Of a stretch of 46,578 nt of DNA, positions 8,446 to 21,409 are shown one piece after another. The notes beneath the pieces were generated by a model that saw nothing but the letters and a program-made list of their open reading frames with translations, ran no database searches and had not been told where the DNA came from. Source of the DNA: Candidatus Sumerlaeota bacterium (GTDB lineage Bacteria; Sumerlaeota; Sumerlaeia; MWCT01; JAUWMI01). The DNA lies in assembly GCA_030613245.1 (NCBI GenBank), contig JAUWMI010000035.1:1-46578 (forward strand), in the 5' to 3' direction. The stretch's first letter is position 1. Each line of letters begins with the position of its first letter. The translations under genes and the position numbers were made by a program.

Positions 8446-8683
8446 ATATTTCAGGGCGATTTAGGAGTCTTTGAAAGGCGTTCCTGGCGGGAAGAATGCT
8501 TATGGCAAAGTACGCAGTCCCTTTGCCACTCTATTTGATTTTTACTCAATCTTTGACCTGAGAAATGATAATAGATTCGCATTCCATTGCTCTAAAGCCC
8601 GCTACTCTATCTTCCATGGGCATGTTACCTAATACAATAATAGACAGAATCGGTTTGATGATACCTAAAGAATGGAGCTTTTT

Positions 8684-9913
8684 ATGATTGAAGACAAGGC
8701 AGACACTCGGAAGTTACTCCTCGGCAAGCGCATTGCGTCAATTGATGTATTCAGAGGCTTAACAATTCTCTCCATGATTTTTGTTAATGACGTCGCCGGA
8801 ATTAGTGGTGTTCCCTGGTGGTTGAAGCATTTCCCAGCTGATGCTGATGGAATGACTTTCGTTGATATCGTCTTTCCAGCCTTTCTGTTTATTGTGGGGA
8901 TGGCCATTCCCTTTGCACTTGGCAGGCGCTTTGAAAAAGGTGAGTCGGCTCTCCAGATATCGAGACACATTCTCATCCGCACGTTCGCTCTGCTGGTCAT
9001 CGGTGTGTTTATGGTTAATATTTCTAGTTTCAATGCTGATGCTGCGGTAGTCAGCAAACACCTATGGATATTTCTGATGTTTATGAGCGTCATTCTTGTT
9101 TGGAATCAATATCCGAGAAGTGAAGGAAAGAAGCGGTCTCTGTTCATTGCACTGCGCATGGTGGGTATTGGGGGGCTTGTTGTTATGGCCGTACTTTATC
9201 GCGGTGGAAGCGGTGAAAACGTTATCTGGATGCGGACAAGTTGGTGGGGAATATTAGGCTTGATTGGGTGGGCATATCTAACTTCGTGCGCTGCGTATTT
9301 GTTGTTTCGCAAACAAATTGCCGGAATGATAGGAGTGCTGGCTTTACTTATTGCACTTTACATCGGCAACGAGTCCGGTGCTCTTAAGTTCCTTGATTTC
9401 ATTAACAAATATGTCTGGCTTGCCGGGCATATAGGCGGACATGCTTCACTAACCGTTGCCGGGGTCATTGTTGGCATGCTTTTTCTCGAGCACTCACCTG
9501 CCAGGACTCCTGGAAAACGGATTGCTTGGATGTTGCTATTCGCACTTGGCCTATTCGTCGCCGGTTATCTTCTGCGTCCGCTTTATGGTATTAATAAGGT
9601 CAAAGCTACTCCCTCGTGGTGTTTGTATTGCTCGGCGATCTGTTGTATTTTCTATACTTTCTTGTATTGGTTGATGGATCTGAAGAGCGTAACACGGTGG
9701 TCGAATTTTGCCAAACCTGCTGGAGCCAACCCGCTCTTAGCGTACATTTTGCCGGCTATTGTTTATGCATTGCTCGCAATCTTAGGCATTCAGTTTCTCA
9801 AGACACATCTTAATACAGGATTAGTAGGCATTATACGCTCTTTAGTATTTTCCTTGGCCATAGTTGCACTGGCAGGACTCTTTTACCGCTGGCGCGTGAG
9901 GCTGCGCCTGTAA
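8684..9913 (+). CDS. HGSNAT-like (DUF5009) membrane acetyltransferase, paralogue 1
   Basis: The N-terminus KRIASIDVFRGLTILSM, then a His-containing loop (WWLKHFPADADGMT) and DIVFPAFLFIVGMAIPFAL, are the signature of the heparan-alpha-glucosaminide N-acetyltransferase/DUF5009 family. About ten further membrane segments follow. The human relative passes acetyl groups from cytosolic acetyl-CoA across a membrane to terminal glucosamine through a loop histidine. I infer a similar transmembrane acetylation of amino sugars here. I chose ATG 8684 because GGAG lies six bases upstream; ATG 8672 is open but has no clear binding site. Two more paralogues occur in the window (16378 and 42693). The next gene encodes a polysaccharide deacetylase, the opposite chemistry. 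Confidence 0.85.
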   Translation: MIEDKADTRKLLLGKRIASIDVFRGLTILSMIFVNDVAGISGVPWWLKHFPADADGMTFVDIVFPAFLFIVGMAIPFALGRRFEKGESALQISRHILIRTFALLVIGVFMVNISSFNADAAVVSKHLWIFLMFMSVILVWNQYPRSEGKKRSLFIALRMVGIGGLVVMAVLYRGGSGENVIWMRTSWWGILGLIGWAYLTSCAAYLLFRKQIAGMIGVLALLIALYIGNESGALKFLDFINKYVWLAGHIGGHASLTVAGVIVGMLFLEHSPARTPGKRIAWMLLFALGLFVAGYLLRPLYGINKVKATPSWCLYCSAICCIFYTFLYWLMDLKSVTRWSNFAKPAGANPLLAYILPAIVYALLAILGIQFLKTHLNTGLVGIIRSLVFSLAIVALAGLFYRWRVRLRL

Positions 9914-11937: not shown

Positions 11938-13698
11938 CTATTCTCCGGCTTTTAATCGAACGACCTCAGTATTCAACTCCCGGATGCGCCCGGACATCTT
12001 CTGCACAATACGGAAAGCAAGGGAAGGATCCTCGTTTATCCTGCGGAGGAGAGTTCTTTTGTCTACGGTGAGCACACGCACCTCGCCCAAGGCGCGCACA
12101 GTGGCCGAACGAGCCTCGCGTTCAAAGAGAGCCATCTCGCCAAAGAAATCCCCCTCGCCCAGCACCGCCAGGCGTACTTCTTTGTCATTTTTCTCCTGAA
12201 GTACTTCGACCTGTCCCGTCTGGATTACATACATGCAATCTCCTACCTCTCCCTGGCGGACAATGCTCTCGCCGTCTCTGTACACCTTGCCCAAAGCTCC
12301 TGTTTCCATGGCATTCTCCTTTTGCCGTCTGCTCGCACTGAGAGGTGAGGTTCCAACAGCTGTGTCCCAGAGGAGGCGGACCAGAAAAGAGGGGTGAAGG
12401 GTGCGCAGAAAGACTTCCCGGTATGGAGCGCTCCCTGTAAAGATATCCCACAATACGATGCTCATGCGCCGGCGTCCACCCTCGTTCTGTTGTTCTCTGG
12501 AGACCATGCGCAAAATGCCACGGTTAGCAAGCCGTATCTTCTGGGTCAGGCGAGTGACAGAAAAAATCATCTTTCCGATTTTGTTGTCCGTACCCATACC
12601 CTGGCAGACTGGCCGGTAGTGGCGGCGGAAGTCCTCAGCAGATACGCCCTGGAAGATCGCGGTCTTGGCAGCGGCCTTGGCAGTGCGGTAGGCGGCCCCG
12701 ACTCCGTCCTTATACAATCTGGTAATCCCACAATCGCCAATGAACACAATCCTATCAGCAAAAGGCTGGACAGCACCCTGGACATTTATCCGGGGAGAGC
12801 AATGGCAGAAGTCCCGGGGCACGCGCCAGTTAGGAGGAAAGCACTTCTTTACCTCGGGCGCATCCAGAAAGAACTGCACTAGAGACTTATCTATCTCCCG
12901 GCCCAGGAGGCACACGGTCACATAGTCGCCCTTGGGGATAATGGCAGCGAATTCCAGCCGAGGTATGTTGAGGAGAAATACATGCATGGAGCTACCTAAA
13001 TACCTCTCCACTGTTTCCCGGCCCAGGCAGAACTCACAGATATAGGTTCTCGTGGTCCGGGGAGGTTTGTAGCTCAATCCCAACCCCTCAGCGAGTTTCA
13101 GAGTGGCGGTATTTACTCCCACGGCTGGCACAAGCAGGTCATAGGTCTGGAGCAAGCCGCCCCAGGTCTTTGCCTGTGGCCGGCCGTCCTTGCGGCTGAG
13201 ACTTTCTACCCGTCTCCGTACCAGTTTAGCGCCCTTGCCCACGGCAAGATCTAGCAGATAGTCATCAAAGCTGCGCCACTTCATTCCCTCCATCCCTCGT
13301 GGGCCAGCTCCCCGGTGCACTACTGCAATTCTCTTTTCGCGAAGCGGGGTGTCAATACGGACGTTGCCCTCATCCATGTGCAGGACATACGAATCAATGC
13401 CCCTCTGTACCACTGTGGGAGGTAGGTTGATGCCTTCGGCTGCCAGGGTTTGCACCAGCGACTCGGAAATGACCCCACCACACATGTTGCAGCCGACTGG
13501 ACCAGGCAGGGAAAAGTCCCGCGGCTCATAGATGTCTACCTGGAGGTCTATGCCAACTCTTTGGGCCATATCCAGAAGGAAATAGCTGAAAAAAGAGCCC
13601 GCCGGGCCGCCTCCAATTACTGCTACATGAGAGCCATTGTTTAATTCAAGTTTAGGTGAGTGATCTTCTGGACTTGTATCAAACTCATTCTCAAGCAT
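11938..13698 (-). CDS. FAD-dependent oxidoreductase fused to a cyclic-nucleotide-binding domain
   Basis: The first 450 residues form a geranylgeranyl-reductase-like flavoprotein. It has an FAD dinucleotide motif VAVIGGGPAGS (about 27-37), a Cys pair in VGCNMCGGVIS, a middle CEFCLGRETVERYLG, and the second FAD motif FADRIVFIGDCG. The last 115 residues are a cNMP-binding domain with an intact phosphate-binding cassette (GEGDFFGEMALFEREARSAT) and a C-terminal helix that resembles CRP without a DNA-binding part. The fusion suggests redox activity or localisation gated by cAMP or c-di-nucleotide-like ligands. The frame is continuous across the junction and codon use looks uniform, so it is not an assembly join. 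Start ATG 13698 has no strong binding site. The ABC genes lie upstream on the same strand. Confidence 0.85.
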   Translation of the reverse strand: MLENEFDTSPEDHSPKLELNNGSHVAVIGGGPAGSFFSYFLLDMAQRVGIDLQVDIYEPRDFSLPGPVGCNMCGGVISESLVQTLAAEGINLPPTVVQRGIDSYVLHMDEGNVRIDTPLREKRIAVVHRGAGPRGMEGMKWRSFDDYLLDLAVGKGAKLVRRRVESLSRKDGRPQAKTWGGLLQTYDLLVPAVGVNTATLKLAEGLGLSYKPPRTTRTYICEFCLGRETVERYLGSSMHVFLLNIPRLEFAAIIPKGDYVTVCLLGREIDKSLVQFFLDAPEVKKCFPPNWRVPRDFCHCSPRINVQGAVQPFADRIVFIGDCGITRLYKDGVGAAYRTAKAAAKTAIFQGVSAEDFRRHYRPVCQGMGTDNKIGKMIFSVTRLTQKIRLANRGILRMVSREQQNEGGRRRMSIVLWDIFTGSAPYREVFLRTLHPSFLVRLLWDTAVGTSPLSASRRQKENAMETGALGKVYRDGESIVRQGEVGDCMYVIQTGQVEVLQEKNDKEVRLAVLGEGDFFGEMALFEREARSATVRALGEVRVLTVDKRTLLRRINEDPSLAFRIVQKMSGRIRELNTEVVRLKAGE

Positions 13699-16377: not shown

Positions 16378-17835
16378 ATGAGGGAAAGCGCTACACCGAC
16401 GCCAGCGCACTTTCTTGATTGCACGACGGGCCAAAAGCGTGCGTTTGGGCTCGATGCGCTTCGAGGATTTGCGATTCTTACCATGGCTCTTTCTGGATAC
16501 ATTCCCTGGGGAGTGTTGCCGAGTTGGATGTATCACGCACAATTGCCGCCGCCAGCCCACACGTTTGATCCGACGATACCGGGGATTACGTGGGTAGATC
16601 TTGTGTTTCCTTTCTTTCTATTTGCTATGGGAGCAGCAATCCCGCTCGCCCTTTCCCGCAGGCTCGAAAAAGGCTATTCTTACCGGAAAATTGTACTCTA
16701 TATTCTTGAACGTGGCGCGCTGCTCGCCGCATTTGGAATGTTCTACCAGCACATTCGTCCACACGTGATGAACTCTAGCCCAACTTCAACAACATGGCTC
16801 CTGGCATTGTTGGGATTTGCCGTGCTCTTTCTGATGTTTATCCGTATGCCAAAATCAATGTCACCGATCGTTGGCTGGTCAATTAAAGGGAGTGGCTGGC
16901 TTGGCGCAATTATTTTTATGGCGCTCATACGGTATCCGGATGATAGCGGTTTTTCTCTTTACCGGAGTGACATCATTATTATGGTGCTTGCAAATACTGT
17001 CGTTGCTGGCTCATTCATCTGGCTGATCACGCAAAAGAACATTCTTTGGCGATTGAGTTTCCTTGGTATTCTTCTCGCACTGCGTTTGTCCTCCACAGTG
17101 GAAGGGTGGGGACAATCGTTGTGGGGATATTCACCTCTGCCGTGGCTCTTTAGATTTGAATACTTGAAATACCTGTTTATTGTGGTTCCTGGAACGATTG
17201 TCGGCGATATGATTTTGGCATGGATAAACTCATCATCAGAGGAGCACTTGGGAAAGGAGGGGTGGGGTGCAGGGCGATTGGCCGCCATTTGCTTTGTGAT
17301 GTTTTCACTCACTATATTCCTTCTCATCGGGCTCAAGGCACGCTGGCTCATGGCAACGAATATTGGCGCTTTTGCGATGTGCGGCCTGGGCGTGATGCTT
17401 CTTTCTCATCCGATAAGTCAAACGGAAAAATTGTTGAAAAATCTTTTCCTGTGGGGAGCGTTTTGGCTTGTGCTCGGGCTATTTTTTGAACCCTTCGAAG
17501 GAGGCATCAAAAAAGACCATGCCACCTTTAGCTACTTTTTTGTCACTACAGGACTCGCCATTTTTCTAATGATTGCGTTCACGATTGTCATTGACATCTT
17601 CAACAAAAAACGATGGCTCCAGCTTCTGATTGATAACGGACAAAATCCGATGATTGCTTACGCCGGTATCCAAAACCTCATCCTTCCGCTTCTTGCCTTA
17701 ACCATGCTCGACCAGCTGCTTCAATCTATTACTCCGACACCATGGCTTGGATTCCTGCGCGGTTTGTTCATGACGCTCGTGCTGGCGTTAGCGGTGAGTT
17801 TCTTTGCCAGGCGCAAAATATTCTGGCGAACTTAA
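16378..17835 (+). CDS. HGSNAT-like (DUF5009) membrane acetyltransferase, paralogue 2
   Basis: At 485 residues this is the longest of the three paralogues. It keeps the family start (RAFGLDALRGFAILTMALSG), a His-containing loop (WMYHAQLPPPAHTFDP) and DLVFPFFLFAMGAAIPLAL, followed by about ten membrane helices and a C-terminal NGQNPMIAYAGIQN motif. The role inferred from the human relative is transmembrane acetylation of a glucosamine-like sugar using cytosolic acetyl-CoA. The loop is longer than in the other two copies, which may mark a different acceptor. ATG 16378 follows a GGGGTAGG stretch. No glycan gene is directly adjacent. Confidence 0.83.
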   Translation: MRESATPTPAHFLDCTTGQKRAFGLDALRGFAILTMALSGYIPWGVLPSWMYHAQLPPPAHTFDPTIPGITWVDLVFPFFLFAMGAAIPLALSRRLEKGYSYRKIVLYILERGALLAAFGMFYQHIRPHVMNSSPTSTTWLLALLGFAVLFLMFIRMPKSMSPIVGWSIKGSGWLGAIIFMALIRYPDDSGFSLYRSDIIIMVLANTVVAGSFIWLITQKNILWRLSFLGILLALRLSSTVEGWGQSLWGYSPLPWLFRFEYLKYLFIVVPGTIVGDMILAWINSSSEEHLGKEGWGAGRLAAICFVMFSLTIFLLIGLKARWLMATNIGAFAMCGLGVMLLSHPISQTEKLLKNLFLWGAFWLVLGLFFEPFEGGIKKDHATFSYFFVTTGLAIFLMIAFTIVIDIFNKKRWLQLLIDNGQNPMIAYAGIQNLILPLLALTMLDQLLQSITPTPWLGFLRGLFMTLVLALAVSFFARRKIFWRT

Positions 17836-18122: not shown

Positions 18123-19217
18123 ATGGAAATCTCCCAGCTGATAGAAGGAGCGGTTAAACTCAACGCTTCGGATATCCATTTGATGGAAAATTATCCACCA
18201 TACTTTCGCATAGACAGCGTCCTTGTTCCAGTAAAGCACCCACCGGTGACTCACGAGGAGATGATGGATATTTTGAAATCTATGGTGCCAGAACGTATAA
18301 AACACAAATTGGAGGAGAAGCGCGGAGTAGATGTTGGGTATCAATATAAAGACGTTGTGCGGTGTCGTGTCATTGTTTTCTTTGAACGACAACGAATAAG
18401 AATTGCCATGCGTTTGATACCATTGCGCGTGCCAACCATTGAGGAACTCGATCTTCCAGCGATATTGAAAAAGATCGCTGATTTTCCGCGGGGGATGATT
18501 GTGTTAACCGGTCCGACTGGTTGCGGTAAATCTACCACACTAGCTGCGATGATTGACTATATAAATGAGACAAAAAAAATCTCCATTACGACCATTGAAG
18601 ATCCAATTGAATTTGTGCATCAGAATAAGAAGGCCATCGTATCACAACGAGAAGTTGGGGATGACATAGGAGATTTTAACAGTGGATTAATTCAGGCGCT
18701 GCGCCAGGATCCGGATGTCATTTTACTGGGTGAGATGCGCGAGGTGGATACCATGCGCACCGCAATAAGAGCTGCTGAGACTGGGCATTTGGTCTTTAGT
18801 ACCTTACATACTACCAACGCCATACAAACAATTGAGAGAATTATTGCCAACTTCCCTGAATCCGAGCAAGATTTAGTGCAGGAACAGTTAGCATCGAATC
18901 TGAAGGCAGTTATTACCCAAAATCTTGTCAGGCGGACTGAAGGCAAAGGGCGAATTGCTGCATTAGAAATACTGGTCGTCCTGGACATGGTGGCAAAACT
19001 AATCAGAGACAACCGATTGGGTGATATTTACGGAATGATGAAAGGCGGACAGGAAGGGATGCAGGTCTTTGACCAGGCATTAGCAAATCTTGTGCGGGAA
19101 AAGAAAATCTCGGAGGAAGAGGGTGTACGGTATGCCAGGGATCCGTATGCATATCGCCGCTTTATAAAAGGAGTCCAATCTTCAAGTGACCGTGGTGGAA
19201 TAATTGCCGGCTTTTAA
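18123..19217 (+). CDS. pilT: PilT-family twitching/retraction ATPase
   Basis: The protein has 364 residues, the usual PilT length. It carries Walker A GPTGCGKSTT (about 130-139), the Asp box TIEDPIEFVH, Walker B DPDVILLGEMREVDT, and the His box AIRAAETGHLVFSTLHT, all in order. PilT-type hexameric ATPases depolymerise type IV pili at the inner-membrane base and drive twitching. PilU is an alternative name that cannot be excluded. No pilin or pilus assembly gene is nearby. Instead the gene overlaps a double KaiC-like ATPase by 14 bases and is followed by a receiver-domain gene, so the three are very likely co-transcribed and co-functional. ATG 18123 has GGAG about ten bases upstream. Confidence 0.93.
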   Translation: MEISQLIEGAVKLNASDIHLMENYPPYFRIDSVLVPVKHPPVTHEEMMDILKSMVPERIKHKLEEKRGVDVGYQYKDVVRCRVIVFFERQRIRIAMRLIPLRVPTIEELDLPAILKKIADFPRGMIVLTGPTGCGKSTTLAAMIDYINETKKISITTIEDPIEFVHQNKKAIVSQREVGDDIGDFNSGLIQALRQDPDVILLGEMREVDTMRTAIRAAETGHLVFSTLHTTNAIQTIERIIANFPESEQDLVQEQLASNLKAVITQNLVRRTEGKGRIAALEILVVLDMVAKLIRDNRLGDIYGMMKGGQEGMQVFDQALANLVREKKISEEEGVRYARDPYAYRRFIKGVQSSSDRGGIIAGF

Positions 19218-20880
19218 GCTCAATCCACACTTACGGGGGTTAGAAACGCAGATGCCGCAAAGAATGAAAACCGGAATATCAGGATTAGACAAAATCCTGG
19301 ACGGAGGTTTTCTTTATCATAACGCGATCTTGCTTAAGGGTCCACCGGGCTCAGGAAAAACTACCCTGGGCATTCAAATCGTCTATAACGGAGTGATACA
19401 TTTCAATGAACCGGGGATCATTGTCCTATTTGAGCAATTCCCCCAGCAGCTCTTTCGTGACATTTCTTCCTACAAGTGGGAGACTGAGAATCTGATAAAG
19501 GAACAAAAGCTCACCATTTTATTTGCCCAGGCAGAGGAAGTAGTTGCAAAAGACCCTGGGTCAGATTCACCACTTCTCTCAAAGATTCACAATATCGCTG
19601 TTGACACATCAGCCAAGCGTATAGTGATTGATAGCATCAGTCATTTTATTAATATCATTAAGCCCAAGATGGATGAAAGGGAACTGCTCTTTAGGTTTAT
19701 TAATTCCTTAAAATCTATCGGCCTGACGCCGATTCTGACTGCGGAGATGGAGAGTAGAGATGAAAAGATTGGGTTTGAAGAATATCTCGCTGATTGCGTT
19801 GTAATGTTGTCCAGTGAGGCAAGCAAGGATAAGACGTTCCCGATGCGTCTGATTGAGGTAAGAAAAACCCGGGGGCATAACCATATCCGAGGTAAACATC
19901 CTTACAGAATTAGTGAACGCGGTGTAGAGATTTTTCCCCATCTTCTTCCCAGGCCCTATGGAAAGGAAGTCAGTAAGGATGTCAGGCTCGAAAAAATATC
20001 CAGTGGCATCGATGGTCTGGATGAACTACTTGGCGGTGGCTACATCTCGGGGACGTCAATGATTGTCGCCGGGATGCCCGGAACCTTTAAGACTACCGTG
20101 GGGGCGCAATTCTTAACAGCAGGCGGGAAATCAGATGAAACAGGATTGCTTATTAGTTTCAATGAAAGCCCGCACTTTCTTACTCGCATCATGAAGGAGA
20201 AAGGGGTTGATCTGGAGTCATACCTTTCAAGCGAAAAAATAAAGATCTGGCACTTTTTCCCCAAAGATTTCTATATGGATGAACTTTTGTATCTACTTGA
20301 GGACGAATTAAAACAGCATGACATAAAGAGAGTTGTTGTTGATGGCATTAATGAGCTGGAAAGAGGCATCGAGGATCCGGCAACGTATAAGGATTTCATT
20401 GCAGCGTTTTTATCTTTATTAGGGCGCAATAACATTACCTCTTTATTCATACAGAAACTAGATCAATTTCCGGGTAATGCGCCGCTTACCAGCATCAGAT
20501 ACGCTTCGATGTTCGACGGGATAATTTTTCTTGGCACCATTGAGATTGAAAGTGCCGTGCATAAAGTTGTCTCTGTACTAAAAATGCGCGGGGGAGATTT
20601 TTCAAGCGACCTGAGAGAAATTTCATGTGGCAAAGACGGCCTCTACGTTCTCGATAAGTTTGTGGGGCTGAGTGGGATTCTGGCTGGCAATCCCCAAGGA
20701 CAATATAAGAAAACCGTAGAGGAAATTTTTCAACCTTTATATTTTGTACGCGACTTTATAGACATATTGGCTAGTTCTGATCTCGAAGAAGAGCAAAAAG
20801 GGCAGATTGTTAATAATCTCAGAACTGAAGTGACTAAATTAGTGGAGAAATTGAAGAAGCATTTCAGTGAGGAAGAATAG
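19204..20880 (+). CDS. KaiC-like protein with two RecA-type ATPase domains
   Basis: Two tandem KaiC domains are clear. The first has TGISGLDKILDGGF, Walker A GPPGSGKTT (about 46-54) and Walker B RIVIDS. The second has SGIDGLDELLGGGYISG, a P-loop AGMPGTFKTTVG (about 288-299) and RVVVDGINELE. Glutamates near the KaiC catalytic position are visible as LFEQFPQQL and FNESPHFL. The last 60 residues are charged and probably form a coiled coil. There is no kaiA or kaiB nearby, so a circadian role is not implied. The reading frame starts inside pilT (TTG 19204, after GGTGGA); an ATG at 19252 just before the conserved domain is an equally plausible start. The role is probably switching or regulating the PilT ATPase, by inference from the operon. 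Confidence 0.9.
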   Translation: MPAFKLNPHLRGLETQMPQRMKTGISGLDKILDGGFLYHNAILLKGPPGSGKTTLGIQIVYNGVIHFNEPGIIVLFEQFPQQLFRDISSYKWETENLIKEQKLTILFAQAEEVVAKDPGSDSPLLSKIHNIAVDTSAKRIVIDSISHFINIIKPKMDERELLFRFINSLKSIGLTPILTAEMESRDEKIGFEEYLADCVVMLSSEASKDKTFPMRLIEVRKTRGHNHIRGKHPYRISERGVEIFPHLLPRPYGKEVSKDVRLEKISSGIDGLDELLGGGYISGTSMIVAGMPGTFKTTVGAQFLTAGGKSDETGLLISFNESPHFLTRIMKEKGVDLESYLSSEKIKIWHFFPKDFYMDELLYLLEDELKQHDIKRVVVDGINELERGIEDPATYKDFIAAFLSLLGRNNITSLFIQKLDQFPGNAPLTSIRYASMFDGIIFLGTIEIESAVHKVVSVLKMRGGDFSSDLREISCGKDGLYVLDKFVGLSGILAGNPQGQYKKTVEEIFQPLYFVRDFIDILASSDLEEEQKGQIVNNLRTEVTKLVEKLKKHFSEEE

Positions 20881-20888
20881 CCACCACA

Positions 20889-21248
20889 ATGCCAAAGAGC
20901 ATTTTAATAGTAGATGATTCGGAAAGTATCCGGACGATTTTGAAACTGACGCTTCAATTCAAGGGATATACAGTCATCGAGGCTGAAGACGGCAAAGAGG
21001 CGTATGAAATTTTGAAACAGACCAATTGCGACTTGGTCATCGCCGATATTGTCATGCCCCATATGTCAGGGGTGGAGCTCCTCAACAAAGTCCGGCATGA
21101 GTTAAAAAAAGAAAATCTCCCCTTCATAATTTGCACCGCTGAAAAAAATGTTAACGAGGAAGAGTTCATTAGAAAAGGTGCTAGCAAATTGCTAATTAAA
21201 CCTGTTTCACCTCGCGTGTTATTAGAAATAGTGGACAGCTTAATTTAA
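20889..21248 (+). CDS. CheY-like single-domain response regulator
   Basis: This is a stand-alone receiver domain of 119 residues with no output domain. It starts ILIVDDSESIRTIL (acidic pocket DD) and has the phosphoacceptor Asp in DLVIADIVMPHMSG. The conserved Thr lies in ICTAEKN and the Lys in LLIKPVSP. It starts eight bases after the kaiC-like stop and completes a three-gene operon with pilT. Phosphorylation by a kinase encoded elsewhere would be the likely input signal to the PilT-KaiC pair. No kinase is encoded nearby except the decayed relic near 31.0 kb. Confidence 0.95.
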   Translation: MPKSILIVDDSESIRTILKLTLQFKGYTVIEAEDGKEAYEILKQTNCDLVIADIVMPHMSGVELLNKVRHELKKENLPFIICTAEKNVNEEEFIRKGASKLLIKPVSPRVLLEIVDSLI

Positions 21249-21333
21249 CGTACATAGTTCAAAAGGTTTGCAGACAAGAAGTATCATGCAATAGGGTTCG
21301 GCCAAACCGTCTTAATGCATAGAGTGCGACGCG

Positions 21334-21354
21334 GGCAGGGATTTTATCCCTGCC
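21334..21354. repeat. Hairpin, possible bidirectional terminator
   Basis: A perfect 9-bp stem GGCAGGGAT / ATCCCTGCC with a TTT loop lies between the convergent ends of the cheY-like gene and the NlpC/P60 protein gene. No T-run follows on either strand, so it may be a dispersed palindrome rather than a terminator. Its GGCAGG stem resembles copy 1 of the GTAGGGGC-arm family at 4615. Confidence 0.5.
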
Positions 21355-21381
21355 TGAACTTTTGTGGCCAACGGATAAGAA

Positions 21382-21409
21382 GTAGGGGCACGCTGCAGCG
21401 TACCCCTAT
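21382..21409. repeat. Palindromic repeat, GTAGGGGC-arm family, copy 2
   Basis: This 28-bp inverted repeat starts GTAGGGGCACGCTG and ends CAGCGTACCCCTAT, with one mismatch (C/A) and one wobble end. Outer arms match the copies at 4615 and 44085, while the core (CGCTGCAGCG) is different but still self-complementary. It sits in the 195-base convergent spacer downstream of the receiver gene. Confidence 0.75.

Follow-up and report, generated by a model that had tools for sequence, protein, structure and literature searches.

The window, a stretch of 46,578 nucleotides from contig JAUWMI010000035.1 of a Candidatus Sumerlaeota genome (GCA_030613245.1; 4.29 Mb in 97 contigs, 96% complete), carries a co-directional run of three genes on the forward strand. 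These encode a PilT-family hexameric retraction ATPase (positions 18,123 to 19,217), a two-domain KaiC-like ATPase (CI plus CII) with an extra C-terminal helical hairpin (19,252 to 20,880), and a stand-alone CheY-like receiver (20,889 to 21,248) that starts 8 bases past the kaiC stop. Open reading frames and family scores agree with the gene content given in an earlier sequence-only reading of the locus. The 14-base pilT/kaiC overlap that it also described holds if translation of the longest kaiC-like ORF starts at the TTG at 19,204. The orthologs, however, favor the ATG at 19,252 (MPQRMKTGI...), and residues 1 to 17 counted from the TTG have a pLDDT below 50 in the AlphaFold model, so that a gap of 34 bases is at least as likely. 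On the 3' side of the receiver gene, a terminator-like hairpin (21,332 to 21,356, forward strand) was found by consensus match only; it is one of a pair, one per strand (21,332 to 21,408), lying between the receiver gene and a convergent gene with an fn3 domain, and the hairpins are not enriched over shuffled sequences. Other genes of the window encode a FAD-dependent oxidoreductase-like protein with a cyclic-nucleotide-binding domain at its C terminus (11,938 to 13,698, reverse strand) and two membrane proteins whose annotations may be related (16,378 to 17,835 and 8,672 to 9,913; DUF5009 and a weak match to a NagX-like acetyltransferase).

The operon PilT scored 426 bits against TIGR01420 (cutoff, 319), and its motifs, as read from the sequence, are intact: Walker A (GPTGCGKST), Asp box (TIEDPIEF), Walker B (VILLGEMRE), and His box (ETGHLVFSTLHTTNA). 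It is one of nine PilTs above this cutoff in the genome, which also encodes nine weaker, PilB/GspE-type matches. Genes of T4P/T2SS type occur elsewhere in the genome, including assembly ATPases with PilC/T2SSF, pseudopilins, a GspK-like protein, and PilM; the absence of pilus genes reported earlier is thus true of the locus and not of the genome. Type IV pilus twitching has been inferred in all Sumerlaeota MAGs of one study (PMC8092238). Several of the eight other PilTs that were examined (loci L059 to L066) adjoin genes unusual for a pilus motor, namely those for PriA, uracil-DNA glycosylase, CoaBC/guanylate kinase, and a CNNM transporter. Since these paralogs lie beside housekeeping genes, the operon PilT may not serve a classical retractile pilus. 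Its C-terminal motif, DRGGIIAGF, was considered as a KaiC-docking motif and rejected; related PilTs without a KaiC have similar ends (DRSRIIGGF, DRAGLIGGF, DRGGLVGNF, and DKGAIIA), which makes the motif a feature of the clade.

The KaiC-like protein matched PF06745 twice (294.5 bits), as expected of KaiC/RecA-like domains, and its best sequence matches in the PDB are KaiC. An AlphaFold model built from 12 sequences had a mean pLDDT of 81, and a Foldseek search with this predicted model returned a double-domain KaiC fold, the top 50 hits all being KaiC and the best of them having a probability of 1.00. Using Synechococcus KaiC as the reference for residue numbering and comparison, we found the CI P-loop intact in nearly all orthologs, with E or D at E77 and Q at E78. 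The CII P-loop of the Sumerlaeota proteins reads G[MLV][PSA]G[TA][FY]K[TS], and the Walker B aspartates are retained. The clock residues have changed: the E318 position is N in the window (N, S, T, E, or Q among orthologs), S431 is A (A, V, L, or T), and T432 is S (mostly S, also A, D, or E), so that S431 is lost and the S431/T432 phosphosite pair and the E318 catalytic base of the clock protein are not conserved. Retention of the CI P-loop and Walker B makes nucleotide binding plausible, and the alterations at S431 and T432 make the clock phospho-cycle implausible. The score against the circadian KaiC model TIGR02655, at 244 bits, lies below the equivalog cutoff of 546. The reported lack of KaiB was borne out and extends beyond the locus, PF07689 going undetected in all 13 genomes, the window's included, although the Synechococcus control was positive.

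The receiver matched PF00072 with 91.6 bits. Its acidic pair, phospho-acceptor Asp, T/S, and K are all present and are kept in 13 aligned copies, so the phospho-site is intact. CheA (PF02895) was not detected in 15 of the 18 genomes tested, among them that of the window, and CheF (PF04283) went undetected in all four genomes searched, although the controls from three archaea were positive. With neither protein detected in the window's genome, a CheA-CheY-CheF chemotaxis input is not available, and "CheY" is here the name of a fold and not an assignment to chemotaxis. The receiver must therefore obtain its phosphate elsewhere, most likely from a different histidine kinase. The search for a PATAN domain here was negative.

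To place the trio among relatives, we used the KaiC-like protein to search 40 Sumerlaeota genomes (the window's own and others sharing its order, class, or phylum), took the neighborhoods, and assigned trio membership at each locus by tblastn of the three proteins together with the receiver profile. At all 17 loci where the contig reaches, pilT lies directly upstream of kaiC on the same strand by tblastn; these loci come from 16 Sumerlaeota genomes, including the window's, and from one genome of another phylum (G167). The receiver lies 3' of kaiC in 14 of 16 assessable loci, a count that leaves out three genomes whose contigs end too early (G003, G006, and G009). The two exceptions, G017 and G022, belong to family f8; the receiver has no place beside kaiC in them, and it is thus dispensable there or has moved. 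The pilT-kaiC-cheY order is therefore not unique to this contig, which answers the neighborhood check proposed at the outset. Gaps between kaiC and the receiver gene are tight (about -4 to +37 bases), with identities across loci as low as about 37% for KaiC, 43% for PilT, and 36% for the receiver. The flanks vary from locus to locus (NAD synthase, ComEC, penicillin amidase, GT2, GH116, and aminotransferase); flanking genes are common to close relatives only, and the other multi-locus ORF clusters checked were frames overlapping the trio. No conserved cognate histidine kinase was found near the operon, and no kinase or transcriptional output domain is fixed within it.

Inheritance of the genes follows the same lines. 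In a tree of 95 PilTs, the Sumerlaeota KaiC-linked PilTs form one clade (support, 96/95), a dedicated paralogue whose sister is a group of unlinked paralogs, and no member of this clade occurs among the over-cutoff PilTs of the five KaiC-less genomes examined (G002, G007, G010, G018, and G021). Groupings in the KaiC tree are those of the PilT tree, and both the PilT and the KaiC of G167 fall outside the Sumerlaeota KaiC-linked clades. Outside Sumerlaeota, a wider search of 386 genomes found pilT beside such a KaiC in G167 only, and PilT was nearby at none of 19 other long KaiC-like loci. Recurrence in every assessable relative while the flanks change takes the arrangement far beyond chance. 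It is very likely that the three proteins are functionally linked; the best explanation of the pattern is a functional unit whose genes have long been inherited together, and we infer joint loss of pilT and kaiC in some lineages. For Sumerlaeota, a phylum known almost only from DNA, the fixed trio suggests a previously undescribed form of pilus control.

The KaiC-like protein ends in a conserved tail of about 60 residues (20,701 to 20,877; GQYKK.VEE.FQPLYF.RDF...), with predicted helices at residues 501 to 522 and 529 to 554 and no meaningful match among PDB sequences. A profile of this tail detected the pilT-linked KaiCs, one KaiC from Armatimonadetes (L090), and the Sumerlaeota paralogs L055, L056, and, weakly, L057; it matched none of the remaining KaiC-like proteins tested. 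We considered the tail as a PilT-specific dock and rejected this role, as L055, L056, and L090 carry it without an adjacent PilT; the tail marks a subfamily and nothing more specific.

Several known systems offer comparisons. Like cyanobacterial KaiC, the Sumerlaeota protein has two RecA-like domains of the same fold, but it lacks S431 and a detectable KaiB, has G..GTFKT in place of GATGTGKT in the CII P-loop, and carries its C-terminal tail where cyanobacterial KaiC has the KaiA-binding end. CheY-like receivers have been proposed to act on pilus motors in cyanobacteria (PATAN/CheY-like regulators with PilB1) and in Pseudomonas (PilG/PilH). Passages of published papers name PATAN regulators together with PilB1. 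These systems are not known to have a KaiC partner, whereas the Sumerlaeota operon has no PATAN domain and no CheA was detected. The archaellum is similar to the operon in that a KaiC-family ATPase is encoded with a T4P-superfamily motor ATPase, and ArlH has been reported to bind ArlI and to modulate or stimulate it (PMC8978795). Unlike the operon, with its two-domain KaiC, PilT retraction-type ATPase, in-operon receiver, and undetected CheF and CheA, the archaellum has a single-domain ArlH, an ArlI that is an assembly and rotation ATPase, and a CheY that acts via CheF and then ArlCDE in Euryarchaeota. Archaella with ArlH and ArlI and without CheF occur in Chloroflexota (PMC12488501). Further archaeal KaiC-family ATPases (arCOG01171, 01174, 01175, and others) are predicted T4P regulators from their gene neighborhoods, in a domain reported to lack the PilT family (PMC4858521); these are linked to VirB11/TadC-type systems, whereas the Sumerlaeota operon combines a receiver with a bacterial PilT. 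Neither pili, PilT, nor motility is mentioned in a survey of bacterial KaiC homologs (PMC5520375), and no paper retrieved by an open-access full-text search on KaiC together with PilT describes such an operon in its title and abstract, an absence that is no proof of novelty. In archaea, ArlH-ArlI is a known case of a T4P-type motor controlled by a KaiC-family protein; the literature searched contained no bacterial equivalent with PilT. The operon plausibly resembles the action of ArlH on ArlI in outline, with a ring of the KaiC family placed next to a motor ATPase of the T4P superfamily.

In the reading that we propose, one dedicated PilT is under the control of a KaiC-type ring that acts through its nucleotide state and is gated by the phosphorylated receiver; we assign this reading a probability of roughly 0.5. 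Its observed basis is gene content, conserved order, co-inheritance, the intact receiver and PilT motifs, the loss of S431, and the lack of detectable KaiB, CheA, and CheF in the genome. The trio would form one regulatory module, in which the receiver would be phosphorylated by a non-CheA histidine kinase and, acting as the input, would set the nucleotide state or the docking of the KaiC-like protein. The latter, which its fold suggests is a ring, would contact the dedicated PilT paralog and control it according to nucleotide state, and the output might be signal-switched pilus retraction or a different task performed by this PilT. The flow from receiver to KaiC to PilT is what we infer from this arrangement. 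If the proposal is true, a KaiC-type ATPase, whose known roles so far are those of a clock protein and of the archaellum regulator ArlH, is linked to a bacterial pilus-retraction motor, and the generality of KaiC-ring control over T4P-superfamily ATPases becomes testable; the operon would offer a compact three-gene system for biochemistry.

Three other explanations carry little weight. The sequence-only reading had raised a possible bacterial counterpart of ArlI-ArlH-CheY control. A true homologous counterpart of archaellum ArlI-ArlH-CheY/CheF control is highly improbable: the neighboring genes for a receiver, a KaiC-family ATPase, and a T4P-superfamily ATPase are a superficial parallel, but the motor reached 67 bits against the ArlI model (cutoff, 550) and the KaiC-like protein 62.8 bits against the ArlH model (cutoff, 215), the latter having two domains and not one and top 50 structural matches that are all KaiC. 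No ArlI exceeded the cutoff in four genomes, and CheF and CheA went undetected as described. What survives of that interpretation is the conserved, co-inherited unit; the homology to the archaellum falls, the motor being a true PilT and the KaiC two-domain. Some KaiC systems keep time without KaiA, and a clock-like oscillator driving pilus activity would draw on the KaiC fold and the presence of both domains, yet with the S431 phosphosite lost, the T432 and E318 positions changed, the CII P-loop altered, and KaiB undetected, such a timer is just as improbable. That the genes are chance or hitch-hiking neighbors without a functional link is scarcely credible, as nothing speaks for it beyond the fact that strings of genes can be conserved, and against it stand 17 of 17 loci in two phyla, a PilT clade and a KaiC that are present or absent together, congruent trees, and variable flanks.

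The main rivals keep the module and change its direction or its target, and we regard both as unlikely, if well above those just discussed. Signals might flow in reverse, with PilT as the sensor: retraction or surface contact would alter PilT, and the KaiC ring would read this change and signal via the receiver or another partner. Gene order gives no direction, and the want of a fixed kinase or output domain in the operon suits this scheme, but a receiver that stands alone and has its phospho-site intact, as here, is more usually the endpoint of kinase signaling that acts on a target protein. Alternatively, the PilT paralog might do a non-pilus job, for example in a T2SS-like pseudopilus, the envelope, or a DNA process, under the control of KaiC and the receiver; the number of PilTs in the genome and the non-pilus neighbors of several paralogs speak for this, whereas the retained motifs, the TIGR01420 score, and the T4P-type assembly genes in the genome speak against it.

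Returning to regulation of PilT by a KaiC-type ring, the theme of a KaiC with a pilus motor or phospho-signaling appears, from gene neighborhoods, to be repeated where members of the tail-bearing subfamily lie beside a PilB-type ATPase or a CheA. It is conceivable, and we hold it tentatively at somewhat under even odds, that this tail-marked bacterial subfamily regulates type IV filament motors in general and is gated by phospho-signals, acting on PilT in Sumerlaeota and another phylum and on a PilB-type ATPase at a paralogous locus, with CheA as its input in Armatimonadota. If so, KaiC-ring control of T4P-superfamily motors would span archaea and bacteria.

Outside the pilT operons, the tail-bearing genes have neighborhoods of their own. 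The weak-tail KaiC-like paralog L057 (G012:C110, 2,798 to 6,501) lies directly 3' of a gene for a PilB-type ATPase (MshEN, T2SSE, and a double zinc ribbon), with a hybrid histidine kinase-receiver-Hpt protein encoded on its other side. In Armatimonadetes SKYB128 (L090, 5,932 to 10,262), the tail-bearing KaiC, 38% identical to that of the window, is directly followed by a CheA-type kinase with Hpt, dimerization, HATPase, and two CheW domains. At L055 (G029:C104, 4,806 to 10,171), a tail-bearing KaiC paralog is followed by a 1,185-residue protein with HSP70 and Ser/Thr protein kinase domains.
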